From assembly GCF_000420665.1 (NCBI RefSeq), contig NZ_ATVJ01000002.1, positions 248,001 through 312,000 of the forward strand: DNA of 64,000 bases. Reading direction: 5' to 3'. Positions 15,641-29,288 of this stretch are shown in pieces. The translations under genes and the position numbers were made by a program. Each line of letters starts with the position of its first letter. Position 1 is the stretch's first letter. Under the pieces are notes generated by a model, which was not told where the DNA came from, ran no database searches, and saw nothing but the letters and a program-made list of their open reading frames with translations. Origin of the DNA: Ponticaulis koreensis DSM 19734 (GTDB lineage Bacteria; Pseudomonadota; Alphaproteobacteria; Caulobacterales; Hyphomonadaceae).

Positions 15641-15716
15641 TGGTGGGCGGTAACGGGCTCGAACCGCTGACCCTCTCGGTGTAAACGAGATGCTCTTCCA
15701 ACTGAGCTAACCGCCC
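15641..15716 (-). tRNA. tRNA-Val (anticodon UAC)
   Basis: The 76-base gene folds into a full cloverleaf. The acceptor stem is GGGCGGT/ACCGCCC, the D arm contains GCTCAGTTGGAAGAGC, and the anticodon stem is TCTCG/CGAGA. The anticodon loop TTTACAC puts TAC at 15683-15681. The T arm contains GGTTCGAGCC. The discriminator A and the CCA end are encoded. It reads valine codons, mainly GUA/GUG. It stands alone between the glycosyltransferase and purU genes. Confidence 0.97.
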
Positions 15717-15873: not shown

Positions 15874-16728
15874 ATGCCAAAGAGCTACATCCTCACCCTC
15901 GCCTGCACTGACCGCTCGGGAATCATTGCGGCTGTCTCAAATGTTTTGCTGAATCACTCATGCTTCATTGCGCGTTCTCGTTCATTCGGTGATGACGCAA
16001 CGAAGACATTCTTCCTCAGGCTTTCATTCCAACCAGAGAATGATTCGTTTTCTCTGGATCAGCTTCAGGCCGAATTGAAGGAAACAGCCTCCCGGTTGGA
16101 AGCCGAATGGGATATCGAACCTGAAGAGCGCAAAATGAAAACGCTCATCATGGTCTCAAAGCTGGACCACTGCGCGAACGCACTTCTCTATGGCGCTCGT
16201 ATTGGCGAACTTCCCATCGAACCGGTTGCGATTCTTTCAAATCATCCAGACCTCGCGCCAACGCTTCAACATTGGGGTCTGCCGTTTCACACCGTACCCG
16301 TTACGCCTGACACCAAGCCACAGGCCGAACAGGCAATGTTTGATATCATCGAGCAGACCGGAGCAGAGCTCACGGTTCTCGCACGTTATATGCAAATTCT
16401 ATCGAATGACGCATGCCAACAGCTTTCAGGAAAGTGCATCAACATTCACCACTCGTTCCTGCCAAGCTTCAAAGGCGCACGCCCATATCATCGGGCGCAC
16501 GAGCGTGGCGTGAAGATGATCGGTGCCACAGCGCACTATGTCACCGCAGACCTGGACGAAGGTCCGATCCTTGCTCAGGTGACGCAGGACGTGGATCACT
16601 CTCATTCTGCCGGGGATTTTGTAGCGATGGGCCGATCACTTGAGGCAACCGCGCTGGTTCGCGCAGTAAAGGCTCATGCTGAAAGACGGGTTTTCCTAAA
16701 CGGCCTGAAAACAGTTGTTTTCGCCTGA
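15874..16728 (+). CDS. purU: Formyltetrahydrofolate deformylase
   Basis: PurU hydrolyses 10-formyl-THF to formate and THF, balancing one-carbon pools. The 284-residue protein has an N-terminal ACT domain (about 1-85; TLACTDRSGIIAAVSN) and a C-terminal formyltransferase domain. The catalytic region reads INIHHSFLPSFKGARPYH, followed by DLDEGPILAQ, giving the expected Asn, His and Asp. Length is typical. Its 3' end faces the Anbu gene with only 9 bases between the stops. Confidence 0.95.
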   Translation: MPKSYILTLACTDRSGIIAAVSNVLLNHSCFIARSRSFGDDATKTFFLRLSFQPENDSFSLDQLQAELKETASRLEAEWDIEPEERKMKTLIMVSKLDHCANALLYGARIGELPIEPVAILSNHPDLAPTLQHWGLPFHTVPVTPDTKPQAEQAMFDIIEQTGAELTVLARYMQILSNDACQQLSGKCINIHHSFLPSFKGARPYHRAHERGVKMIGATAHYVTADLDEGPILAQVTQDVDHSHSAGDFVAMGRSLEATALVRAVKAHAERRVFLNGLKTVVFA

Positions 16729-16737
16729 CGGGGCGCT

Positions 16738-17469
16738 TTATACGTCCATCAACCGCATTTGTGAAAAGGCGTTCTTCAGCGCGTTTGACCAAGCCTCACT
16801 AAAAGCAAAGAACCGAGGATCGTCGGCATCGATTCTGCGCTGTTGCTCGAACATCAACGAGTTTGTTCTCATGACCGCAAGGTCCAGCGGCATACCTACC
16901 GTCAGGTTGGATCGCAACGTCGAGTCCATAGACAAGAGTGCGCAGATCACGCCGTCCTGAATATCGGTGTCTACATTGACGACGCGATCGAGAATTGGTT
17001 TGCCGTACTTATGCTCACCGAGTTGGAAGAATGGAGAATCTTCGGTGGCCTCAATGAAATTACCCGCAGCGTAGACCATAAACAGACGCGGCACCCCGCC
17101 CACACGCTGACCGGCAACCAGAATTGACGCCCCTGAGTCGACATTACGCGCAGTCAGACCGGGCCCATAGCGCGCCTGAACCTTGCGCATCGTATCTCCT
17201 ACGACCTGAGCGACCTCAAACATGCTCGGCGCTGAGAAGATCGTTGGCTCATTGGGATTAGGTGCATCAAGGCGTTCATTGATTTCGCTGATAACCGCCT
17301 GTGTGATCGCGAGATTACCCGCTGTCATCATGGCGATAGCCCGTTCACCGGGCACCTGCCACGTGAACAACTTTTTCACTCGCGAGATATTATCAACACC
17401 CGCATTGGTTCTGGTATCCGCCAGCAGCACAAGGCCCTGATTGAGCTTGATACCAACACAATACGTCAT
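16738..17469 (-). CDS. Anbu-type proteasome-like peptidase
   Basis: This 243-residue protein has the N-terminal nucleophile fold of proteasome beta subunits. After removal of Met1, Thr2 would be the catalytic Thr1; Asp18 and Lys33 stand at the positions of the proteasomal Asp17 and Lys33-type residues. GIKLNQGLVLLADTRTN matches the Anbu (ancestral beta subunit) family rather than HslV. Anbu proteins form helical or ring-like assemblies and their substrates are unknown. It is the last gene of a minus-strand set after an ATP-grasp gene and an alpha-E gene, the typical Anbu neighbourhood. The ATG has GAGGAGACCTCA upstream. Confidence 0.9.
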   Translation of the reverse strand: MTYCVGIKLNQGLVLLADTRTNAGVDNISRVKKLFTWQVPGERAIAMMTAGNLAITQAVISEINERLDAPNPNEPTIFSAPSMFEVAQVVGDTMRKVQARYGPGLTARNVDSGASILVAGQRVGGVPRLFMVYAAGNFIEATEDSPFFQLGEHKYGKPILDRVVNVDTDIQDGVICALLSMDSTLRSNLTVGMPLDLAVMRTNSLMFEQQRRIDADDPRFFAFSEAWSNALKNAFSQMRLMDV

Positions 17470-17602
17470 TGAGGTCTCCTCGCGATTGCTCTGTTATTAT
17501 AAATCGCAAGCAACGCTTCTACGCCTTCGCTCGGCATTTTCAAGCAGCAAAACTGAAAGCTTTACGTGAGTAACACGGCGAACTGTCTTGTAATTTAGCC
17601 AG

Positions 17603-18622
17603 TTAAGTGCCTTGAGACTGAGTCTGCCCCTCAGTTTCGACTTTCTCTTCACCATCTTCCACCGTTAAAGGCGGCGCAAACGCGAAGGAGAGCCCGATTT
17701 CGTGAGACAGATTACCTACGCTTTCGATAAACCATGTGAGGTATTCGTGCAGGCCGTCAGTAAGAATTTGCTCGATGTCAGCAGTGCGAAGCCCGCTAAG
17801 CATGACTTCTGCACGAATGCGGCATGATGTTTGCCGATCGTAATATTCTTCTAGTTGTGTGAGCGATTGAACCACTCTGTACAGGCTGTAGCTCAGGGAT
17901 CTTGGATTCACTTCATTCTGAATAAGGAATGCTGCAACACCATCCCGGGTCACGTCGGACTTCGTCACAAAGTGATAAGCACGTTGAACGCCGACTGCCT
18001 GCAATAATGAAATCCATTGATAATGGTCCAGGGTACCACCGATCGCCCCGAGCGACGGCAGCAAAACGTGATACTTCACATCCAAAATACGCGCAGTCGC
18101 ATCGGCGCGCTCAAGGTGACTACCAATCCGCAAAAACTCGAGGCCGTCATCACGCACAAGAGTGCCTTCCACAGAGCCTCTATATTGAGCCTGACAAACT
18201 TTCACCCAATCAACAAACTCTGCCAGATACGCCTTGCGCGTCCGGAGCATACCTATCTGTGCTGGCAATTCATTCCAACCAGAGTTGAGGCTGTTCCAGA
18301 CCTCCGAGGTCAAGCCAAACCGAATTGCACGCGCATTTTCGCGGGCATTACGAAAGCAGTTATAAATACTGGAAGGATTATCAGGGTCAGCGACAAGATG
18401 CTCAACGGCCTCTTCTCGCGTTACGTGTTCTAGGTCTCCCTTAAATGTGCCACCTGCTCCAGCCGCAATCAGAATGGACGACCATTCATTCGCTAGCGGA
18501 CGTCCGGATTCGTTGGGCAGCGTGACCATACGACGTGCCGTATCGATGAGACGGGCGACATTGTCCGCACGTTCCATTGAACGCGCAATCCAGAAGAGGT
18601 TTTCAGCTACACGGCTAAGCAT
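17603..18622 (-). CDS. Alpha-E domain protein
   Basis: This 339-residue all-helical protein starts MLSRVAENLFWIARSMERAD, the diagnostic N-terminus of the alpha-E family. The domain is rich in conserved Arg and Glu and no enzymatic role has been proven. It is found almost always beside a circularly permuted ATP-grasp protein and a transglutaminase, as here. The start lies 6 bases after the ATP-grasp stop with GTAGGATAAG in front, so the two are translationally coupled. A 133-base gap separates it from the Anbu gene. The C-terminal tail after residue 320 is acidic and Gln-rich. Confidence 0.9.
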   Translation of the reverse strand: MLSRVAENLFWIARSMERADNVARLIDTARRMVTLPNESGRPLANEWSSILIAAGAGGTFKGDLEHVTREEAVEHLVADPDNPSSIYNCFRNARENARAIRFGLTSEVWNSLNSGWNELPAQIGMLRTRKAYLAEFVDWVKVCQAQYRGSVEGTLVRDDGLEFLRIGSHLERADATARILDVKYHVLLPSLGAIGGTLDHYQWISLLQAVGVQRAYHFVTKSDVTRDGVAAFLIQNEVNPRSLSYSLYRVVQSLTQLEEYYDRQTSCRIRAEVMLSGLRTADIEQILTDGLHEYLTWFIESVGNLSHEIGLSFAFAPPLTVEDGEEKVETEGQTQSQGT

Positions 18623-18628
18623 CTTATC

Positions 18629-20038
18629 CTACTCCGTCAGAACCCAAGTATCTTTAACGCCGCCGCCCTGGCTGGAATTGACCACCAGAGACCCCTCACG
18701 CAGCGCCACACGTGTCAGTCCGCCGGGCGTGACCTGCGTGATATCACCAGTCAAAACGAACGGTCGGAAATCCACATGACGTTCCGCAACGCCTTCTTCA
18801 ACGAGCGTCGGACAAGTCGACAATGACAATGTTGGCTGTGCGATAAACGCTGAAGGCTTGGCTTTGAGACGTTGCGCATATTGTTCACGCTCTTCAGCAG
18901 TTGATTTCGGGCCAATCAACATGCCGTAACCACCCGAACCGTGCACTTCCTTCACAACGAGATGTTCGAGGTTTTCGAGAACATGGCTGAGCTGCGATGG
19001 CTCACTGCAGCGGAAGGTTTCAACGTTTTTCAGAACAGGATCTTCGCTCAGATAGAAGCGGATCATGTCTTCCACGAAACAGTAGATTGCCTTGTCATCC
19101 GCCACACCAGTGCCAGGTGCGTTAATGATGGTCACGCCGCCGGCTTTATAAGCGCGTATCAGGCCGGGTACGCCGAGCATAGAGCTTGGATTAAACTGCT
19201 CTGGATCCAGAAATGCATCATCAATCCGACGGTAGATAACATGCACGCGTTGCGGGCCGCGCGTCGTACGCATGTAGACTTTATTGTCATCTACGAAGAG
19301 GTCAGACCCCTCAACGAGAGGAATACCCATTTCATCAGCGAGGAAAGAATGTTCGTAATAAGCGCTATTAAAGTGACCAGGCGTCAGGATAACGCTGACA
19401 ATACCTCCGTCATCTACTGCATTCATAGGCGCGACGCTTTCCATGGTCTGGCGCAGCATGTCCGGATAATATTCGACCGGCGCAACGTCTCCGTTCATGA
19501 ACAGCTCGGGGAATAAACGTGACATCATACGGCGGTTCTCAAGAACGTAAGAAACGCCTGATGGTGTACGGCAATTGTCTTCCAGAACGTAAAATCCGTC
19601 TTCGCCGGTTCGGATCACATCGATCCCCGAAATGTGAGAGTACACATTCTTCGGCGGCATGAAATCACGCATAACCGGCTCGTAAGCCTCGTTATTGAAG
19701 ATAATTTCGGCTGGCACGATACCTTCTTTTACAATGCGTGCCGCACCATAAACGTCTGCGATGAAAGCATTGAGAGCCTGTGCACGCTGAACAACGCCGC
19801 GCTGCAGAACATTCCATTCAGATGCAGAAAAAACACGTGGAATGACATCAAACGGAATCAAACGTTCGGGATCACCGCCCTCGCCATAGACCGCGAATGT
19901 AATACCGATTTTTCGAAACAATGTCTCAGCTTCCGAGGAAGCCTGTTTGAGGTCATCTATCGACTGACTTTTCAGCCAGGTATCAATTTGTTGATACTCG
20001 GGCCGCACCAGCCCGCTCTGAGTCATCTCACTGAACAT
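18629..20038 (-). CDS. Circularly permuted ATP-grasp protein
   Basis: This 469-residue protein belongs to the circularly permuted ATP-grasp family (type 2; older DUF404/DUF407). Visible elements are FAVYGEGGDPERLIPFDVIP near the N-terminus, FYVLEDNCRTPSGVSYV, a glycine-rich lid VKEVHGSGGYGMLIG, and the C-terminal RPFVLTGDITQVTPGGLTRV, in which PGGLTRVA is highly conserved. ATP-grasp enzymes usually ligate a carboxylate to an amine, so peptide or isopeptide bond formation is the inferred chemistry. The substrate is unknown. It is the first gene of the operon that contains alpha-E and Anbu, and it diverges from the transglutaminase gene. Confidence 0.92.
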   Translation of the reverse strand: MFSEMTQSGLVRPEYQQIDTWLKSQSIDDLKQASSEAETLFRKIGITFAVYGEGGDPERLIPFDVIPRVFSASEWNVLQRGVVQRAQALNAFIADVYGAARIVKEGIVPAEIIFNNEAYEPVMRDFMPPKNVYSHISGIDVIRTGEDGFYVLEDNCRTPSGVSYVLENRRMMSRLFPELFMNGDVAPVEYYPDMLRQTMESVAPMNAVDDGGIVSVILTPGHFNSAYYEHSFLADEMGIPLVEGSDLFVDDNKVYMRTTRGPQRVHVIYRRIDDAFLDPEQFNPSSMLGVPGLIRAYKAGGVTIINAPGTGVADDKAIYCFVEDMIRFYLSEDPVLKNVETFRCSEPSQLSHVLENLEHLVVKEVHGSGGYGMLIGPKSTAEEREQYAQRLKAKPSAFIAQPTLSLSTCPTLVEEGVAERHVDFRPFVLTGDITQVTPGGLTRVALREGSLVVNSSQGGGVKDTWVLTE

Positions 20039-20175
20039 TTAACACCGTCAACCATTGCTCCATTGCCTATGAAGCTGGCATGCGGCTGATCATTTACCAA
20101 GACAAAGACCGAAAAAAATCACGTAATTGATTGTTTTGGTTGCAGGCCGTCCGATTTAGGCGTTAGCCATGCCTT
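20039..20175. promoter_or_regulatory. Divergent promoter region between ATP-grasp and transglutaminase genes
   Basis: This 137-base region lies between the two divergent halves of the locus and must contain both promoters if they are not co-transcribed from elsewhere. I see no strong consensus boxes and no striking inverted repeat. The bases just before the plus-strand ATG (TTAGGCGTTAGC) offer only a weak ribosome-binding site. Confidence 0.35.
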
Positions 20176-23100
20176 ATGACTATACGCATTGGCCTTACGC
20201 ACCGCACTTCGTATTCCTACGACAAACCTGTCAAAATGGGGCCGCAGACAATCCGGCTACGCCCGGCGCCTCACTGCCGCACGCCAATCGTCAGCTATAG
20301 CCAGACCATTCTGCCAGAAGATCACTTTATCAACTGGCAACAAGACCCGTTCGGGAACTACCTTGCTCGCATCGTCATTCCTGAAAAGACGACGCAGTTT
20401 TCTGTAGAGATCGACCTTGTCGCTGACATGATCGCGATCAACCCGTTCGACTTCTTTCTGGAAGACAGTGCGTCCCACACGCCTTTTAGCTACGACGACG
20501 ACACCAAAAAGCAGCTCCAGCCCTATCTTGAAACAGACACGACAGGACCGCAGTTCGAGAAATTTCTCCTGCAGGCGAAGAAGATCTGGGGATCAAAGCA
20601 AGGCGAAGCGACGTCAACCGTCGATACGCTTGTCGCGTTGAACCAGCTCGTCGAAGCCAAAATTGACTACACAATTCGCATGGAGCCCGGCGTTCAGACG
20701 CCCGAGGAAACGCTGGCGCTGGCAAAAGGCTCGTGCCGCGACTCCAGCTGGCTGCTCGTCAACATCTGCCGACGCCTCGGACTCGCAGCACGATTTGTTT
20801 CAGGCTATCTGGTGCAGCTAACCGCCGACATCGCGTCTGTGACAGGCCCATCTGGTCCAGAAGTCGATTTTACAGATCTGCATGCCTGGGTGGAAATCTA
20901 TATTCCCGGAGCTGGCTGGATCGGGCTCGACCCAACATCAGGCCTGTTTGCAGGTGAAGGGCATATCCCGCTTGCAGCGACACCTGTGCCATCATCGGCA
21001 GCCCCTATTTCTGGCGGACTGGAACCTTGCGAAGTAGAGTTCGACTTCGAAATGAAGGTCGAGCGTCTCATTGATCCACCCCGTCATTCTAAACCTTTGA
21101 GTCCGGCGCAGTCTGAAAAGATCAATATCGCAGGCCGCGCGATCGACAAAATTCTCAACGATAATGATGTCCGTCTGACCATGGGCGGAGAGCCGACCTT
21201 CGTGTCAGAAACGAACCGTGATGCGCCAGAATGGACAACGGACGCGGTTGGTCCGGAAAAGCGCACATATGCCGACCAGCTGATCCGTCGTCTCAAAAAG
21301 AAGTATGCGCCAAATGGCCTGCTCACACACGGTCAGGGAAAATGGTATCCGGGCGAACCGCTCCCGCGTTGGGCATTCACAGTTTACTGGCGCAATGACG
21401 GGGAACATCTGTGGCGCAATCCCGAACTGATCCAAAAAGAAGAAGAGCCGGCATCATTTAAATCCGAAGATGCCGAAGTGCTCGCCAAGACAATTGCGAC
21501 GCGCCTCGATCTGGCGCCGGAATGCGCCCAACCAATTTATGAGGACCCTGCTGAAATTATTCTCGGTGAGGGCAATCTTCCGATCAATCTCGATCCTGAA
21601 GATCCAAAGCTAAAAAAATCCGAGGAACGCCGCACACTGGCTCGTGCGTTCGAACAAGGCCTTGGACATCCAAAAGGCTTCGTCATTCCACTTCAGACTC
21701 AGCAAGCTCGTAACAAGCAGGGCCGGATTTTCGAATGGATGACTGAAATCTGGGAAAGCCGCCGCGGCAAACTCTTCCTGGTGCCGGGCGACAGCCCCGC
21801 AGGTTTCCGTCTTCCGCTCAAATCGCTTCCTGAGCTGAATGCGAGCCTCTATCCGGGTCTAATTCCTCTCGATCCGTTTGCGATCGAAGGCGAAATTGCA
21901 GCACCTCAGAACCTGCCGCCACGCCTGCAAAGTAAGGCATCTGGCGACACTGGCAAGCGTGCCGTACCAGAGTATATGCCAGAGCGCGAGTTCGTTCAGG
22001 CGGGCATCCGAACCGCGATGTCAATTGAACATCGCGACGGCCATCTGTGTGTATTTATGCCGCCTGTGTTCTCAACAGAAGCGTTCCTTGATCTGATCTA
22101 CGCCGTTGAAGAAGCCGCGTCACAGACGGGGCTACCAGTGCGGATTGAAGGCTACCCGCCGCCTCGTGACCCACGCATCAGCGAAATCAAGGTCACACCG
22201 GATCCGGGCGTAATCGAAGTCAACGTGCAGCCTACGTCCACATGGGATGAGCTCTCAGATCTGACACGCACATTGTACGAAGACGCCCGTCAGTGTGGGC
22301 TGGATTCATCGACATTTCTGATTAATGGTCGACCGACTGGCTCAGGGGGCGGCGCGCACATCGTCATGGGCGGCGCGTCACCAAACGACAGTCCGTTCCT
22401 TCGTCGCCCGGATCTGCTGGCCTCGATCATCAGATACTGGCAGAACCACCCTGCCCTGAGCTACTTCTTCGCTGGAACGTTTATCGGGCCAACAAGTCAG
22501 GCGCCGCGTATCGACGAAGCCCGCCACGACCAACTCTACGAGATGGAACTGGCGCTCAAACAGCTGCCACCATCTACGGAACAGGCACCGCCATGGCTTG
22601 TCGACCGTGTGTTGCGGCACCTGCTTGTCGACACGACCGGCAACACACACCGTTCCGAAATTTGCATTGATAAGCTCTATTCTCCGGATGGTCCCGCAGG
22701 GCGCCTCGGACTGGTTGAATTCCGCGCGTTCGAAATGCCTCCGCACGCAGAAATGAATCTCGCTCAGCAACTCTTGCTAAGGGCGCTTATCGCCTGGTTC
22801 TGGACCACGCCTTACACGGCGCCCCTCAAGCCGCTCGGGACGGACCTGAATGATGAGTTCATGCTGCCTGCAGTCCTTCGCGCAGACCTGAACAACATTC
22901 TGCGAGAAGTCTCCGAAGGCACCGGTGTTCAGCTGGACCCAAGCTGGTTCGATGCACACATGGAGTTCAGGTTCCCGAAAATCGGCAACGTTTCCTATGA
23001 CGGAGTTGATATTGAGCTACGCCATGCTCTGGAGCAATGGAACGTGTTGGGCGAGGAAGGCGCAGTCGGAGGAACCGCCCGTTTCGTAGACTCGTCTCTG

Positions 23101-23508
23101 GAACGCATTCAGGTCACCGTGACCGGCGATCTCGGATCGAGACAATTGCTCTGCAACGGCATCGTTGTCCCTCTGAATAAAATCCCGGGCAGCGAGACAA
23201 TGATTAGCGGCGTACGTTTCCGGACCTGGCTACCGGCTTCCTGTCTGCATCCGACAATCCAGCCTCATGGACCACTAACGTTCGACCTGTATGACAGCCG
23301 TGTTGGACGCTCCATTGGTGGATGCACTTACTTCCCTACCCATCCAGGCGGTCGCAACTTCGACACACGGCCGATTAATGCACTGGAAGCAGAAGGACGG
23401 CGGATCGCATCTTTCACAGAAACCGGCCATACAGCGGGGCAATTCACGCCGCGTTATATCCAGACGGATCCGCGTTTCTCATCGACGCTGGATCTTCGCT
23501 GGTCGTAA
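20176..23508 (+). CDS. Transglutaminase-like protein with C-terminal DUF2126 domain
   Basis: This is a very large protein of 1110 residues. Residues 1-100 are the bacterial transglutaminase N-terminal beta domain. The papain-like transglutaminase core follows: Cys187 in AKGSCRDSSW, His236 in DLHAWVEIY and Asp252 in GLDPTSG form the triad. The long C-terminal region (about 300-1110) corresponds to DUF2126, with LTMGGEPTFVSETNRDAPEW and GRPTGSGGGAHIVMGG; its sugar- or carboxylate-ligase-like fold has been proposed but not proven. Such proteins are cytoplasmic, and no signal peptide is seen. The gene diverges from the ATP-grasp/alpha-E/Anbu operon, giving all four parts of the known cluster. Confidence 0.9.
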   Translation: MTIRIGLTHRTSYSYDKPVKMGPQTIRLRPAPHCRTPIVSYSQTILPEDHFINWQQDPFGNYLARIVIPEKTTQFSVEIDLVADMIAINPFDFFLEDSASHTPFSYDDDTKKQLQPYLETDTTGPQFEKFLLQAKKIWGSKQGEATSTVDTLVALNQLVEAKIDYTIRMEPGVQTPEETLALAKGSCRDSSWLLVNICRRLGLAARFVSGYLVQLTADIASVTGPSGPEVDFTDLHAWVEIYIPGAGWIGLDPTSGLFAGEGHIPLAATPVPSSAAPISGGLEPCEVEFDFEMKVERLIDPPRHSKPLSPAQSEKINIAGRAIDKILNDNDVRLTMGGEPTFVSETNRDAPEWTTDAVGPEKRTYADQLIRRLKKKYAPNGLLTHGQGKWYPGEPLPRWAFTVYWRNDGEHLWRNPELIQKEEEPASFKSEDAEVLAKTIATRLDLAPECAQPIYEDPAEIILGEGNLPINLDPEDPKLKKSEERRTLARAFEQGLGHPKGFVIPLQTQQARNKQGRIFEWMTEIWESRRGKLFLVPGDSPAGFRLPLKSLPELNASLYPGLIPLDPFAIEGEIAAPQNLPPRLQSKASGDTGKRAVPEYMPEREFVQAGIRTAMSIEHRDGHLCVFMPPVFSTEAFLDLIYAVEEAASQTGLPVRIEGYPPPRDPRISEIKVTPDPGVIEVNVQPTSTWDELSDLTRTLYEDARQCGLDSSTFLINGRPTGSGGGAHIVMGGASPNDSPFLRRPDLLASIIRYWQNHPALSYFFAGTFIGPTSQAPRIDEARHDQLYEMELALKQLPPSTEQAPPWLVDRVLRHLLVDTTGNTHRSEICIDKLYSPDGPAGRLGLVEFRAFEMPPHAEMNLAQQLLLRALIAWFWTTPYTAPLKPLGTDLNDEFMLPAVLRADLNNILREVSEGTGVQLDPSWFDAHMEFRFPKIGNVSYDGVDIELRHALEQWNVLGEEGAVGGTARFVDSSLERIQVTVTGDLGSRQLLCNGIVVPLNKIPGSETMISGVRFRTWLPASCLHPTIQPHGPLTFDLYDSRVGRSIGGCTYFPTHPGGRNFDTRPINALEAEGRRIASFTETGHTAGQFTPRYIQTDPRFSSTLDLRWS

Positions 23509-23647
23509 GAGATCACACATTCGTAACCGCGTAGGATTTCCCTTATCCGACGCGACGGAAACCCTAGGTTCACCCGTATAGTGATCCAGAACGTTCGATT
23601 ACGCGTAGGAATGCCAACAGGCAATCTGACTATTTGAAGGAAACACT

Positions 23648-24766
23648 GTGCGTTTGATGTCACCGAAGCGCCTCGGCCTCATTGCGATCCCCGCCCTATT
23701 CCTCGTCGGATGCTCCGATAACAATGCATCGACGGGCCCGGCGATGGGTGGCGGGCGTGAGATGCCCGCAACAAGAATTCTGGCAGAACGTGTAGAGTTT
23801 CGTGCTGACCGCGAGCAAATCGAGTCCGTAGGGACAGCCCGGGCACGTCTCGCAGCTACTATCTATCCACAAAGCTCCGGCGAAATCGTTTCGGTCAGCT
23901 TCACTTCTGGCCAGTATATCGAAGAAGGACAGGTCCTCGCGCGTTTGGACAGCGCTGAAGAACGCCTTCGTGTAGCACAGGCCAATGTGACGCTTCAGAA
24001 CGCACAGCAACTTCTCGCGCGCTATGAACGTATTGATGTCGACGGCGCGATTTCCGAAAGCCAGATTGATAGCGCACAAACGGCCGTTGAGGCCGCTACA
24101 ATCGATCTGAGACTGGCTGAAGAAACTTTGGCGGATCGCACAATACGCGCTCCGTTTTCTGGCTATGTCGGGCTCACCGACATTGATATAGGGGCGACGG
24201 TAAACCAGCAGACCGAAATTACCCGCATCGATGACAGAACGGAATTGTTCGTCGATTTCGCATTGCCTGAACAGGTATTCGGGCGGGTCAACGTAGGTGA
24301 CACTCTGCCGATGCGTCCGTTCGCTGCTGCGGAACGCGACATCGAAGCCATTGTCGCTTTCGTGGATAGCCGTATTGATGCTGATCGTCGCTCATTCATG
24401 GTCCGCGCTGCAGTAGACAACAGCGCTGATGACCTTCGTCCAGGAATGAGTTTCCGTGTCGAGTTCTCGCTTCCCGGCAATGATTATCCGGCGGTTCCAG
24501 AAGCGTCTATTGTCTGGGGTGGTGACGGCGCATATCTCTGGAAGGTCGTGAACAACCAGGCTCAGCGGGTTCCGGTAACGATCGTGTCTCGCGACAACGG
24601 CTATGCGCTCGTCCGCGCTGATCTCAGCGAAAATGATATGATTATCACAGAAGGCGTTCAGAAAGTTCGTCAGGGTTCGGCAGTTTCTGTGGTGCAACCG
24701 ACTGCTAACAACGAGATTCCTGTCGCGGAAATCAGCCGCACGATTACGGGCGCTGCAGTACAATGA
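23648..24766 (+). CDS. RND efflux pump membrane fusion (periplasmic adaptor) lipoprotein
   Basis: This 372-residue adaptor links an RND transporter to an outer-membrane channel. A GTG start at 23648 with AAGGA just upstream is preferred. A lipoprotein signal ends LFLVGC, giving acylated Cys22. The biotinyl-lipoyl-like stretch VVSFTSGQYIEEGQVLARLD precedes an alpha-helical hairpin (about 95-150), the returning lipoyl half (TIRAPFSGYVGLTDIDIGA) and a beta-barrel. The stop overlaps the RND permease start by four bases (ATGA). The substrate cannot be read from the sequence. Confidence 0.92.
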   Translation: MRLMSPKRLGLIAIPALFLVGCSDNNASTGPAMGGGREMPATRILAERVEFRADREQIESVGTARARLAATIYPQSSGEIVSVSFTSGQYIEEGQVLARLDSAEERLRVAQANVTLQNAQQLLARYERIDVDGAISESQIDSAQTAVEAATIDLRLAEETLADRTIRAPFSGYVGLTDIDIGATVNQQTEITRIDDRTELFVDFALPEQVFGRVNVGDTLPMRPFAAAERDIEAIVAFVDSRIDADRRSFMVRAAVDNSADDLRPGMSFRVEFSLPGNDYPAVPEASIVWGGDGAYLWKVVNNQAQRVPVTIVSRDNGYALVRADLSENDMIITEGVQKVRQGSAVSVVQPTANNEIPVAEISRTITGAAVQ

Positions 24767-27700
24767 TTGGCGCGCCTAAATCCGGTCTCCCAGAACTTGC
24801 GGTCAAGCGTCCGCTACTCATTACCGTATTCAACCTTCTCATTGTTCTGGCGAGCGTAGCTGCGCTATTTGGCGTAGAAGTCCGCGAACTTCCCGACGTT
24901 GACCGTCCAATCGTTTCGGTTACGGCGAGCCTTCCTGGCGGCGCACCGGAAACAATGGATGCCGACGTCACCAGCGTGCTTGAGGGCGCTGTTGCAACCG
25001 TTTCTGGCGTTAAAGAGATAAACGCCTCCAGTGAAGAAAACTCGGCCCGCATCCGGATCGAGTTCAATCCGGGGGTCGATCTCAACTCAGCAGCTTCCGA
25101 AGTACGTGAAGCTGTCAGCCGTGTGCAACGTCGCCTGCCCGACGGCGTGGAAAACGTCTTCGTAACCAAGGCCGATAACGACGCGCGTCCAATGATGCAG
25201 CTGGCTGTCGTGTCGCTGGAATATCCCGAAGACGAGCTTACCCGTATTATCGAAACCGACATCATGCCAGCGCTGCAAGCCATTGATGGTGTCGCGACGC
25301 TCAACGAATTTGGCACGCGCGAGCGCCAGATGCGCGTCGTCGTCGATCCACAGCGCATGAACCGCTTCGGTCTCACCGTCAGCGATGTTGCAACGGCTCT
25401 GCGCCTCGCCCCGTTCGACGTGCCCGCCGGGAGCTTCCAGTCAACCGATCAGGCGCTAATCGTGCGCGCAGAAGCAACCGCGTCTACGCCCGAGCGCATC
25501 AAGGAAGTCATCATCCGTGATGATATTCAGATCGGTGATGTCGCGGAGGTGACACTTGCTCCGGCCAATGCCAACAACCTGCTTCGTCTCAATGGTGAGC
25601 CAATCATTGGTCTCGGCGTGGTACGTCAGGCCCAATCCAACACAATTCAGATTTCCGACTCCGTTCGAGATGTTGTCGAACGCCTGAATAACCGGATTGA
25701 GGGTGTCACGATTAGCGTCACATCCGACGATGCCGTCTTCATTCGAAAATCCGTTCAGGAAGTTCTGATCTCTCTCCTGATCACGGTCGCTATCGTAGTC
25801 GCCACAATCTGGGTGTTCCTCGGGTCATGGAAAGCGACGATCATTCCAACTGTCGCGATCCCGATTGCTCTTGTCGGTACGCTGACCGGCATCTGGTTGA
25901 TGGGATTCTCCATCAACCTCCTCACGCTCCTTGCTTTGGTTCTGGCAACCGGCCTGATTGTGGACGATGCGATTGTTGTCCTGGAAAACATTCAACGACA
26001 GCAATCTCAGGGAGTGCCAAAGCGCGCGGCAGCCGCAATAGGCACACGACAGGTTTTCTTCGCTGTTATAGCGACCACAGCGGTTCTTGTGGCGGTGTTC
26101 GTGCCACTTTCATTCTTGCCATCGACGGTCGGCCGTTTGTTCCGTGAGTTTGGTTTTGTGCTCGCCTTCTCGGTTATTATTTCATCCTTTGTTGCGCTCA
26201 CTTTATCGCCAGCAATTGCAGCGAAAGTCACGCTCGTAGAAAAATCCGATAAGCCAAACGTTTTCGCACGCATCGGCAATCCGCTTCGTGATCTCTACGG
26301 CCGGATGCTCAAGCTTTGTCTCGCCTTCCCACTCGTAACATTTTTCGTCAGCCTAGCAGCAGCTGGCGGCGCTTACTTCGCATACCAGAACATCTCATCT
26401 CAGCTCGTCCCAAGTGAAGACCGCGGGCGCATCGAAATCTTTGCATCCGGTCCTGACGGCGTGGGACTCAACTTCATGGAACGCCAGGCCGACGAAGTCG
26501 AAGCGATCCTTCAGCCGTATCTGGACTCAGGCGAAATCCGTTCGATCTTTACAGTGGTTGGTCGCTGGGACCCGAACCGCGTTGGCGTCACCGCCGAACT
26601 TGCGCCATGGGAAGAACGAACGCGATCTCAGGAAGAAATTGTCGCTGAACTTCGCCGCCCACTCTCACAGGTTCCCGGCATTCGAGCCAGCGCGTTTGGG
26701 CCGAGCAGTCTGAGCTTTGGCCGTGGTGGACGCAGCTCAGGCCTTGAAGTCGCACTCACAGGCCCTGATTACCAGTCAATCTATCTTGCAGCGCGCCAGC
26801 TTGCTGACACGGTCGAGACAGAATCGACCATCCTCTCAAACGCAGAAATTTCTTATCAGCCGACACAGCCACAGCTATCCATTCAGGTTGATCGACGCCG
26901 CGCGGCAGATCTCGGTGTATCACTCGATCAGATCTCATTGACGCTTCGCGCAATGGTTGGCGGTGAAGATATCACTGACCTGAACGTGCAGGATCAGGCT
27001 ATTCCAATCATGTTGGAAGCAGAAACCAACGCCATTGAGACACCGACCGATCTCAGCAATCTGTTTGTGAGGTCTAACAGCGGTGAGCTTGTGTCTCTTT
27101 CGAGCCTTACAACTCTGGTCGAGGAAGGTGTTGCCGCCGAGCTAGACCGAGTTGAACAGCGACGGGCAATTACGGTACAAACCGATGTTGCGTCAGGCAC
27201 GCCACTCGCAGAAGCGATTGAAGAAATGCAACGCCTTGCGGCCGACACCTTGCCTGAAGGCATCTCCATGATCTTTCGTGGCGAGGCCGAAACGCTAGGC
27301 GAGTCCAACCGCGATCTTTTGATCACTTACGGGTTTGCGCTTTTGATCGTCTTCCTGGTGCTGGTCGCCCAGTTCGAGAGCCTGTCCAGCCCGCTCATCA
27401 TCATTATCACTGTGCCATTTGCGCTCGCAGCCGCGATCTATGCACTATTCTTATCTGGCGTGTCACTGAACATCTATTCCCAGATCGGGCTCGTGCTGCT
27501 GATCGGATTGATGGCAAAAAATGGCGTCTTGTTGGTAGAGTTTGCTAACCAGCTGCGCGCTGAAGGACTGTCCCTGAAGGACGCAGTTTATGAGGCTGCG
27601 ACGGTTCGCGTGCGCCCGATCGTCATGACCGTAATTTCAACTGCATTCGGGGCCATCCCTCTACTGCTCTCCAGCGGAGCGGGCGCAGAGGCGCGAAATG

Positions 27701-27888
27701 CTATCGGTTGGGTTATCTTTGGCGGACTTGGTCTGGCGTCGGTCTTCACGCTCTTCCTGACACCAGTTCTGTATCTCTCAATCGCGCGTTTCACCTCTCC
27801 TAAAACGCAGACTGACGATGAGCTGGACAACGATCTGCAACGTTACAGCGAACAGGACGAGCAACCTCATGCGGGGCCCGCAGAGTAA
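24763..27888 (+). CDS. RND-family efflux transporter, HAE1-type
   Basis: This 1041-residue inner-membrane proton antiporter has the AcrB/MexB plan of 12 helices and two large periplasmic loops. The paired acidic residues of helix 4 are present in ATGLIVDDAIVVLENIQ. ISSQLVPSEDRGRIEIFASG and the second half's LIGLMAKNGVLLVEFANQL are further signatures. It overlaps the adaptor gene by 4 bases and the outer-membrane gene by 1 base (TAATG). Drug, detergent or metabolite export is likely; no local regulator gene is present to suggest the inducer. The C-terminal tail is acidic. Confidence 0.95.
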   Translation: MIGAPKSGLPELAVKRPLLITVFNLLIVLASVAALFGVEVRELPDVDRPIVSVTASLPGGAPETMDADVTSVLEGAVATVSGVKEINASSEENSARIRIEFNPGVDLNSAASEVREAVSRVQRRLPDGVENVFVTKADNDARPMMQLAVVSLEYPEDELTRIIETDIMPALQAIDGVATLNEFGTRERQMRVVVDPQRMNRFGLTVSDVATALRLAPFDVPAGSFQSTDQALIVRAEATASTPERIKEVIIRDDIQIGDVAEVTLAPANANNLLRLNGEPIIGLGVVRQAQSNTIQISDSVRDVVERLNNRIEGVTISVTSDDAVFIRKSVQEVLISLLITVAIVVATIWVFLGSWKATIIPTVAIPIALVGTLTGIWLMGFSINLLTLLALVLATGLIVDDAIVVLENIQRQQSQGVPKRAAAAIGTRQVFFAVIATTAVLVAVFVPLSFLPSTVGRLFREFGFVLAFSVIISSFVALTLSPAIAAKVTLVEKSDKPNVFARIGNPLRDLYGRMLKLCLAFPLVTFFVSLAAAGGAYFAYQNISSQLVPSEDRGRIEIFASGPDGVGLNFMERQADEVEAILQPYLDSGEIRSIFTVVGRWDPNRVGVTAELAPWEERTRSQEEIVAELRRPLSQVPGIRASAFGPSSLSFGRGGRSSGLEVALTGPDYQSIYLAARQLADTVETESTILSNAEISYQPTQPQLSIQVDRRRAADLGVSLDQISLTLRAMVGGEDITDLNVQDQAIPIMLEAETNAIETPTDLSNLFVRSNSGELVSLSSLTTLVEEGVAAELDRVEQRRAITVQTDVASGTPLAEAIEEMQRLAADTLPEGISMIFRGEAETLGESNRDLLITYGFALLIVFLVLVAQFESLSSPLIIIITVPFALAAAIYALFLSGVSLNIYSQIGLVLLIGLMAKNGVLLVEFANQLRAEGLSLKDAVYEAATVRVRPIVMTVISTAFGAIPLLLSSGAGAEARNAIGWVIFGGLGLASVFTLFLTPVLYLSIARFTSPKTQTDDELDNDLQRYSEQDEQPHAGPAE

Positions 27889-29288
27889 TGACATCAATTC
27901 GAATTTTAGCACTCGGCGCCACTGCGTTCTGCGCAGCCTGTGCCACGAGCACCATAGAGCCTACATTAGATCAATCTCTTCCGGAAAGTTATGTCACAAA
28001 CCTTCCGGCAGAAGACACAACTCTCTCCTATGCTGACTGGTGGCTTGGGTTCAATGATCCGGTTCTGACTGAGCTGGTAGACCGCGCGCAAGAAAATAAC
28101 ATCAGCGTCGCCCAGGCGCTTTTGCAAACCGATATCGCGCAGCTTCAGCGAGACGCATCTCAATCAGATTTGCTTCCCACACTAGACGCATTCGTAAACA
28201 ACCAGCTGAGCGGCGTCATCACTAGCGGCTTTGATGGAAACTTTACTGGCTCGACCGGCATTGGCGGCACGTTCGATCCTGACCTGAATGGACAAACTGC
28301 GGCTCGCATTGCCTCGGTTCAGGCGGCTTTGGAATCAAGTGCTTTGAACGCAAACGATGTTCGTCGTTTGATAACCCGTGCAATTGCGCTCCAGTATATC
28401 GAATTTCGCCGCGCCAGCGCCCGACTGGCCCTGTTAGAATCCACGTTGGAACTTCAGGAGCGAACGCTTCAAATTGTGGAATCCCGCTATCGCGCCGGCT
28501 TGTCACCAAAACTCGACGTAGACCGCACCCAGGCAGATTACGCTCGCACAGCTGCGCAGCGTAGCCAGATCATCGCAGCACGCAGGCAGGCGGAATTTGA
28601 AATCCAGCGCCTGATGGGAGAACCGTCGGCTCTGGACCAGATCACAAATCCTGACAGAGAAACCATTCCTCAGATTCAGTTTGTCTCTGATATCGGTATT
28701 CCAGCTGATCTGGTGAGACGTCGCCCGGACGTTCGTGCTGCGGAAGCTGACTATCGCTCCGCCTTGGCCTTGATAGATACTGAACGCGCAGACCTTTTGC
28801 CGTCCATTCGGATACCAGGTCAAATTCAGGCAGGTTTTGGTGACGTTTCAGGACGCTCTGACGAAATCGGTTATAGTCTGTCCGCGCTCATAGACATCCC
28901 TGTATTCGATTTTGGACGCCGTCAGGCAGAGGTCGACATACAGATCGCACGCACTGAACTTGCCGCTCTCACATATAGAGCGACACTGCTGGACGCGCTT
29001 CAGGAAGTTGAGATAGCGCTGGTAAACATTGAGGCCATCCAAGAGACACTTGAAGGACAGCTTCGCGCCGTGGAAGCCAGTCAGGCGGCTTACGACCAAC
29101 TCGACGCCTTGTACCGCGAGGGTCTTGCCAGCTTCATTGATGTTCTGGATTCCCAGCGCACACTTATTTCTAGCCGTGAAACGATTGTTCAGACAGAAGC
29201 TAATCTAGCTGCTGCAACTGTTTCTTTGCTAGCCGCGCTTGATGCAGGCTGCGATGAGACAGGCATTGTAGCTTGCGAAGGCGAGTAA
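27888..29288 (+). CDS. Outer-membrane efflux channel lipoprotein, NodT/TolC-like
   Basis: This 466-residue protein completes the tripartite RND pump. The N-terminus has a lipoprotein-type signal ending FCAAC (Cys18), with a slightly unusual -3 Cys. Typical family elements are YADWWLGFNDPVLTELVDRA, the coiled helical repeats with RYRAGLSPKLDVDRTQADY, RRPDVRAAEADYRSALA and the second repeat YREGLASFIDVLDSQRTL. These two homologous halves make the beta-barrel and tunnel of TolC-like trimers. It starts on the stop of the transporter gene and ends the cluster. Confidence 0.93.
   Translation: MTSIRILALGATAFCAACATSTIEPTLDQSLPESYVTNLPAEDTTLSYADWWLGFNDPVLTELVDRAQENNISVAQALLQTDIAQLQRDASQSDLLPTLDAFVNNQLSGVITSGFDGNFTGSTGIGGTFDPDLNGQTAARIASVQAALESSALNANDVRRLITRAIALQYIEFRRASARLALLESTLELQERTLQIVESRYRAGLSPKLDVDRTQADYARTAAQRSQIIAARRQAEFEIQRLMGEPSALDQITNPDRETIPQIQFVSDIGIPADLVRRRPDVRAAEADYRSALALIDTERADLLPSIRIPGQIQAGFGDVSGRSDEIGYSLSALIDIPVFDFGRRQAEVDIQIARTELAALTYRATLLDALQEVEIALVNIEAIQETLEGQLRAVEASQAAYDQLDALYREGLASFIDVLDSQRTLISSRETIVQTEANLAAATVSLLAALDAGCDETGIVACEGE

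Follow-up and report, generated by a model that had tools for sequence, protein, structure and literature searches.

A variant Anbu operon in Ponticaulis koreensis with a divergent transglutaminase-DUF2126 gene and no small transglutaminase

A 64,000-nucleotide stretch of the Ponticaulis koreensis DSM 19734 genome (contig NZ_ATVJ01000002.1, positions 248,001 to 312,000; hereafter the window) was analysed. It contains an operon of Anbu, an alpha-E protein and an ATP-grasp ligase, and a divergent gene for a transglutaminase-DUF2126 protein (the large protein). The locus is very probably a variant Anbu operon in which the transglutaminase has been exchanged. The whole reading, for which the chances appear about even, is that of a derived Anbu operon without its former small transglutaminase, the job of which was taken over by the large protein, and that writes and erases a chemical mark. 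The features of the locus were as follows.

16738-17469, minus strand: Anbu (proteasome beta-like N-terminal-Thr peptidase), 243 amino acids (aa); Pfam Proteasome
17470-17602: gap of 133 bp between alpha-E and Anbu, the site of a small transglutaminase of about 270 aa in canonical operons
17603-18622, minus strand: alpha-E protein, 339 aa; Pfam Alpha-E
18629-20038, minus strand: circularly permuted ATP-grasp ligase, 469 aa; separated from alpha-E by 6 bp
20039-20175: divergent intergenic region between ATP-grasp and the large gene; holds TGTTTTGGTTGCAG at 20132-20145
20176-23508, plus strand: transglutaminase-DUF2126 (large protein), 1110 aa; transglutaminase about 1-275, DUF2126 283-1108

Open reading frames (ORFs) and Pfam profiles at these coordinates agreed with the four gene identities and the orientation given by an earlier sequence-only reading of the window. 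Anbu matched Proteasome at 31.4 bits (cut-off 22.4) and the alpha-E protein matched Alpha-E at 276 bits. The ATP-grasp protein scored 535.7 bits with CP_ATPgrasp_2 and 472.5 bits with CP_ATPgrasp_1; the large protein scored 85.6 bits with Bact_transglu_N, 67.6 bits with Transglut_core and 1161.9 bits with DUF2126.

The same reading had called the set complete, with all four partners present, and this had to be corrected. The canonical Anbu operon consists of four genes in the order ATP-grasp, alpha-E, transglutaminase-like and Anbu (PMC6376114; papers given by PMC number are cited from excerpts throughout). The window departs from this order, with no transglutaminase separating alpha-E from Anbu; the published fourth partner, a separate small transglutaminase, is absent from the operon. 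The 133-bp gap at 17470-17602 contained no ORF of at least 20 aa conserved outside three near-identical genomes (those of the window, L064 and L067; loci are numbered L, genomes G and contigs C) and no minus-strand terminator-like site. The genome of the window (G000, 100% complete) had one match only to Bact_transglu_N (PF08379), which was the large protein.

The window's genome and 60 relatives (61 genomes) were searched for Anbu, CP_ATPgrasp_2, Alpha-E, DUF2126 and PF08379, which matched in 36, 46, 45, 25 and 46 genomes, respectively. All 36 Anbu genomes also had ATP-grasp, alpha-E and PF08379 matches. From these genomes, 57 loci were fetched and labelled. Alpha-E and Anbu were separated by a small transglutaminase gene in 25 of the 36 Anbu genomes (24 loci fetched; G035 judged from coordinates), while 10 had the arrangement of the window, without a small transglutaminase and with the large gene divergent from ATP-grasp. 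Anbu was apart from the remaining genes in one genome, G012. The window arrangement was also present in an eleventh genome, G005, the contig of which stops within alpha-E. The large protein was the sole PF08379 match in 11 of 11 window-type genomes among the 61, and likewise in two other window-type genomes, G150 and G298 (the genome of L119). The total was 13 loci with the window arrangement, in at least four genera.

Within the genus, ATP-grasp and the large gene were found in 7/7 genomes, alpha-E in 7/7 (one cut by a contig end) and Anbu in 6/7, the seventh contig ending inside alpha-E. Co-conservation of the four genes, on which the sequence-only reading had staked its case, thus held in these seven genomes and did not extend beyond the genus for the large gene, which was present in 22 of the 36 Anbu genomes and adjoined the Anbu operon in 10. 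The distribution supports the view that the large protein would take over the role of the small enzyme.

Other arrangements of these families occurred among the relatives. In 11 loci (e.g., L080, L089, and L106), ATP-grasp and alpha-E formed a single fusion protein of about 800 aa, and 10 of these carried the fusion together with a transglutaminase-DUF2126 gene and a small transglutaminase; the eleventh, L096, was without the large gene. Fusion-type loci share the large protein family with the window (52-54% identical in four compared). They differ from the window, in which ATP-grasp and alpha-E are unfused, Anbu is present, the small transglutaminase is absent, and the large protein groups apart. 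In L072, L074, and L077, the large gene was divergent from a longer transglutaminase.

In the phylogenetic tree of the large protein, the 13 window-type loci formed one group with a Shimodaira-Hasegawa-like approximate likelihood ratio test support of 100 (99 with 12 loci earlier). The same 13 loci formed one group with a support of 95 in the tree based on concatenated ATP-grasp, alpha-E and Anbu sequences, in which L066 was represented without Anbu and with a cut alpha-E. Since the 13 loci were one clade in two separate trees, the arrangement is a coherent, inherited variant. In the ATP-grasp tree, 12 window-type rows fell inside a 24-row branch (support 98) with 12 canonical Anbu operons, and this branch was apart from the fusion type and two longer-transglutaminase loci; L070 was placed weakly outside the other window-type members. 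L116 and L118, with broken ATP-grasp genes, were dropped from the ATP-grasp tree, and the canonical loci among L119-L198 were thinned to every third in the ATP-grasp, single-gene and concatenated trees. The pairwise divergences of the four proteins were strongly correlated across 10 loci (r 0.88-0.98, a level reached by no more than 2 of 2000 permutations), as would be expected for co-inherited genes, although vertical descent alone also gives such a correlation. On the simplest reading of these trees, a canonical Anbu operon would have lost the small transglutaminase and gained the large one as a permanent neighbour once, and would then have spread or descended as a block.

Beyond the close relatives, 80 named Anbu loci were compared, which were the best 80 of at least 594 confirmed loci and are therefore biased towards the window. 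A small transglutaminase was near Anbu in 71 of these best 80, and one (L119) was of the window type. In a class sample of 172 genomes, Anbu was found in 47, DUF2126 in 27 and PF08379 in 64. PF08379 was present in 47/47 Anbu genomes, against 64/172 overall (Fisher p 3e-28, kinship ignored), and DUF2126 in 19/47. By coordinates, four of the 47 had DUF2126 no more than 10 kb from Anbu: the genome of the window, G150 (window type, L199), G085 (L200) and G219 (L201). In L165, L200, and L201, which are arranged differently and fall outside the window group of the large-protein tree, Anbu and the large gene were adjacent or two genes apart. Interrupted copies of ATP-grasp or DUF2126 were observed in L116 (G050), L118 (G032) and contig C32 of G032; given these, some lineages may be able to do without the systems.

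The catalytic triads proposed from the sequence were conserved. Thr2, Asp18 and Lys33 of Anbu become Thr1, Asp17 and Lys32 once Met is removed, and Thr, Asp17 and Lys32(33) in mature numbering are the catalytic residues named in PMC6376114. Asp18 and Lys33 were present in 117/117 aligned rows. These rows were chosen by a start motif containing Thr2 and Cys4, so that Thr2 is 117/117 among them by construction; with three rows outside the motif (L062, L172, and L177) it was 120/120. The Anbu proteins of L172 (10001-10732) and L177, loci labelled Hyphomicrobium, have Gly at position 4, where Cys is otherwise constant. In the large protein (only proteins of more than 1000 aa were counted as large, and those of 255-345 aa as small transglutaminases), Cys187 was present in 41/41 rows, His236 in 40/40 readable rows (one X) and Asp252 in 41/41. 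Replacement of the triads in close homologues was checked and was not the case. The ATP-grasp protein was also intact as described, with profile scores over the cut-off and 90 of 469 positions invariant over 108 rows (400-600 aa only).

Comparison of Anbu with PDB sequences gave five matches at E 0.001 (5loy, 5nyj, 5nyf, 5nyw, and 5lox; best E 1.3e-84). Three of them are named Anbu and two (5nyw and 5lox) are named 'Peptidase'; 5LOX is called Anbu in PMC8665760. The ATP-grasp protein had one solved relative, 3n6x (E 9e-182), labelled putative glutathionylspermidine synthase. The alpha-E protein and the 1110-aa protein had no PDB match at E 0.001 in a single-sequence search. Alignment of alpha-E showed that E17/R18 (ER motif) was invariant in 48 rows. 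The predicted alpha-E fold was all-helical with 14 helices and a mean predicted local distance difference test score (pLDDT) of 91.4 (48 sequences), and a Foldseek search of the PDB with this model gave no match at E 0.001; raising the limit to E 10 gave 116, and the template modelling scores at the head of the list were about 0.2.

The AlphaFold2 model of DUF2126, made with a three-sequence alignment, had a mean pLDDT of 39.7 and was discarded. The alignment of the DUF2126 profile with those of glutamine synthetase and Amidoligase_2 by hhalign gave no match, and neither did the positive control of glutamine synthetase against Amidoligase_2. In DUF2126, the motifs GxGGGxH and EFR are invariant and may resemble those of glutamine synthetase. 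A pattern search of viral contigs for the large protein gave 134 hits, none of them a relative.

Several points weigh against an exchange with takeover and against the chemistry attached to it. The 13 window-type loci are one origin, not 13 cases, and the trees were quick and midpoint-rooted for drawing. L199 and L119 lay on long branches, and the single-gene trees were weaker, with two changes each for ATP-grasp and Anbu and one, at support 83, for alpha-E. Four of the best 80 loci (L162, L185, L188, and L190) had ATP-grasp and alpha-E with neither transglutaminase nearby; their genomes had PF08379 matches elsewhere (genome-wide PF08379 checks were run on 12 genomes of the 80 loci). Anbu was alone in another four of the best 80; two such genomes had PF08379 elsewhere, and two (G304 and G305, for which a completeness figure is absent) had no PF08379 match. 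The PF08379 profile overlooked at least one divergent small transglutaminase, at L165 (9103-9885), which was found by a custom profile; since it can overlook divergent copies, its lack of a second match in the window genome is strong but not final evidence. The triad was intact in 41/41 large proteins, also in ones alongside small transglutaminases, so its intactness does not show takeover. The description of DUF2126 as a second ligase-like domain, part of the sequence-only reading, is a label resting on the Pfam description. No sigma-54 or NtrC site was matched in 20039-20175 with up to 2 mismatches. In published work, purified Anbu had neither peptidase nor amidase activity and did not bind specifically to its operon partners (PMC6376114).

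Two side observations concern these loci. The L165 ORF is small, transglutaminase-like and adjoins Anbu in a locus that also has the large gene and another small transglutaminase. L141 and L143 had apparently solitary Anbu genes, with no ATP-grasp, alpha-E or transglutaminase in the fetched stretch and no PF08379 match in their genomes.

These counts bear on the idea that the large gene is merely a neighbour, the three-gene operon working without a transglutaminase while the large protein serves another pathway. Eight of the best 80 named Anbu loci lacked both transglutaminase genes, small and large, in the neighbourhood of Anbu, and two of those eight genomes were without a PF08379 match, as this idea would have it. 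Against it stand the grouping of the same 13 loci in the large-protein and concatenated trees, the large protein being the only PF08379 match in the window-type genomes searched, the finding of PF08379 in all Anbu genomes of the class sample, and the fact that Anbu and the large gene are linked in L165, L200, and L201 as well. A mere neighbour was considered very improbable, and a variant operon with an exchanged transglutaminase is preferred.

This operon shares with the canonical operons of Pseudomonas putida (PP_2685-2688) and Yersinia bercovieri the ATP-grasp, alpha-E and Anbu families, their order and their active sites, and its ATP-grasp groups with the canonical ones. It differs from them in that the small transglutaminase is missing and a large transglutaminase-DUF2126 gene lies divergently alongside. 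The Anbu operon was described by Fuchs 2017 (PMC5666114) and in the Y. bercovieri paper (PMC6376114), and both credit the tagging and untagging idea to Iyer 2009 and to Valas and Bourne 2008. The sequence-only reading was thus in line with print in stating that the set recurs and is predicted to make and remove a peptide or amide tag; as of 2017, the idea of a mark that is written and removed was in print and unconfirmed. According to published work, Anbu had no detected activity on standard proteasome substrates, and the ATP-grasp enzyme of the Anbu operon released phosphate from ATP.

The window arrangement was not met in the excerpts of the Anbu accounts PMC5666114, PMC6376114, and PMC8665760, a comparison that lies outside the figures of Iyer 2009 and of Valas and Bourne 2008. 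A literature search for any two of the four family COG numbers together returned no paper. The basic Anbu system and the tag idea are already known, and the window holds a new, coherent variant of a still unexplained system.

The locus I35_5080-83 of Burkholderia cenocepacia (DUF404/407, DUF403, transglutaminase-like, and large transglutaminase-like) has, like the window, ATP-grasp, alpha-E and a large transglutaminase-like gene together (PMC5491218). Unlike the window, it retains a separate transglutaminase-like gene; Anbu is unmentioned in the excerpts, and 'proteasome' is absent from the main text. RimK/RimB and RloA/B/C of Pseudomonas, each an ATP-grasp protein paired with a peptidase, provide an analogy in working only; in RimK/RimB, what the ATP-grasp ligase makes is removed by the peptidase (PMC12239564). 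These systems have an aspartic peptidase in place of Anbu and no alpha-E, and the window is not a member of them.

The I35_5080-83 genes are sigma54/NtrC targets (PMC5491218), a dependence for which no site was found at the window, and PP_2685-2688 are listed as ntrB/ntrC-controlled (PMC7801951). In the first number column of that list, the heading of which is not visible in the excerpt, PP_2686-2688 have values of 11.0 to 14.7, and the value for the Anbu gene PP_2685 is 1.12. Homologous operons respond to nitrogen limitation along with urea transporters (PMC7801951 and PMC5491218), and in marine metagenomes the domains of these genes associate with urea metabolism (PMC3597751). The system could on this basis serve nitrogen scavenging, an idea stated in PMC6376114: under starvation the transglutaminase would deamidate and Anbu would degrade proteins, releasing ammonia and amino acids. 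The control of both operons agrees with this. The idea leaves an ATP-consuming ligase and alpha-E unexplained, PP_2685 hardly moves in the first column, and the divergent region of the window had no sigma-54/NtrC match. Nitrogen scavenging was considered improbable.

The sigma-54 and NtrC consensus patterns matched nothing at the locus. The best upstream score of the window was 8/12; among the upstream stretches of 141 loci, 11 scored at least 10/12, compared with 5/141 random stretches, and the two best were L185 (12) and L171 (11), loci labelled Tepidiphilus and Methylophilaceae. Some congeners carry a TGGCACG-like sequence in the divergent region, which was rejected as a sigma-54 site because the -12 spacing was wrong. 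TGTTTTGGTTGCAG, 30 bp before the large gene, was invariant in the 7/7 congeneric genomes aligned while most of its surroundings varied, and is a possible regulator site. In 16600-23700, promoter-like sites were not above chance (3 found, 4.3 expected), and 13 terminator-like sites were found against 7.5 (sd 3.0) expected.

A fifth co-occurring small peptide gene, suggested by the sequence-only reading, was looked for in the 13 window-type loci and none was found. Comparison of flanking ORFs of at least 60 aa at E 1e-6, over flanks of 1 to 10 kb per locus, gave no gene common to three genera; the single cross-genus pair was between L119 and L199, with 27% identity. With no substrate gene linked, the product might be a small oligopeptide metabolite in place of a protein tag; it would be assembled by ATP-grasp/alpha-E together with the transglutaminase-DUF2126 protein and hydrolysed by Anbu to recover amino acids. 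By its name, the sole solved ATP-grasp relative (3n6x) is a small-molecule ligase, and the nitrogen-limitation response with urea transporters would suit a nitrogen-rich metabolite. The kinship of Anbu with proteasomes points instead to peptidic substrates, and no transporter gene was common to the loci across genera. Such a metabolite was judged unlikely.

Around the locus, a PurU-like gene at 15874-16728 (plus strand) is convergent with Anbu, the two ends being 9 bp apart. It adjoined 6/7 congeneric loci (the seventh contig stops short) and none of the other loci within the fetched stretches. A tRNA-Val (TAC) gene lies past it at 15641-15716 (minus strand). Directly downstream of the large protein, a resistance-nodulation-division efflux set at 23648-29288 (plus strand) comprises a membrane fusion protein, an AcrB-type permease and an outer-membrane factor. 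Elsewhere in the same genome (contig C1 of G000, 1548070-1548990; L259), a protein of Amidoligase_2 (PF12224) is encoded, a family found in 19/240 class genomes.

Under the preferred reading of a protein or peptide mark, ATP-grasp and alpha-E would act as one unit, in which ATP activates a carboxylate and joins it to an amine on a protein or peptide (amide or isopeptide bond). Their fusion in 11 relatives' loci argues for such a unit and hints that alpha-E may be a ligase subunit. The Cys-His-Asp domain of the large protein would trim, transfer or cross-link the product via a thioester, DUF2126 would perhaps add a further amide, and Anbu, as an N-terminal-threonine hydrolase, would cut the mark off again. 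We infer this write-and-erase chemistry, the takeover of function and the role of DUF2126; the chemistry falls just short of an even prospect. A broader proposal, possible but rather unlikely, is that the Anbu and transglutaminase-DUF2126 systems would be two parts of a single pathway with a common substrate, which the clade of the window would have merged into a minimal four-gene unit with the large protein replacing the small transglutaminase and alpha-E as an obligate ligase subunit.

No function is known for Anbu, a relative of the proteasome, and a natural exchange of a part narrows the question. The large-protein tree and the operon tree have matching groups, which links two loci that are usually apart. 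The window-type system is simple, with one PF08379 protein per genome, and the two domains of the large protein are separable for testing. The exchange implies that the transglutaminase step seems needed, while the small enzyme itself looks replaceable.

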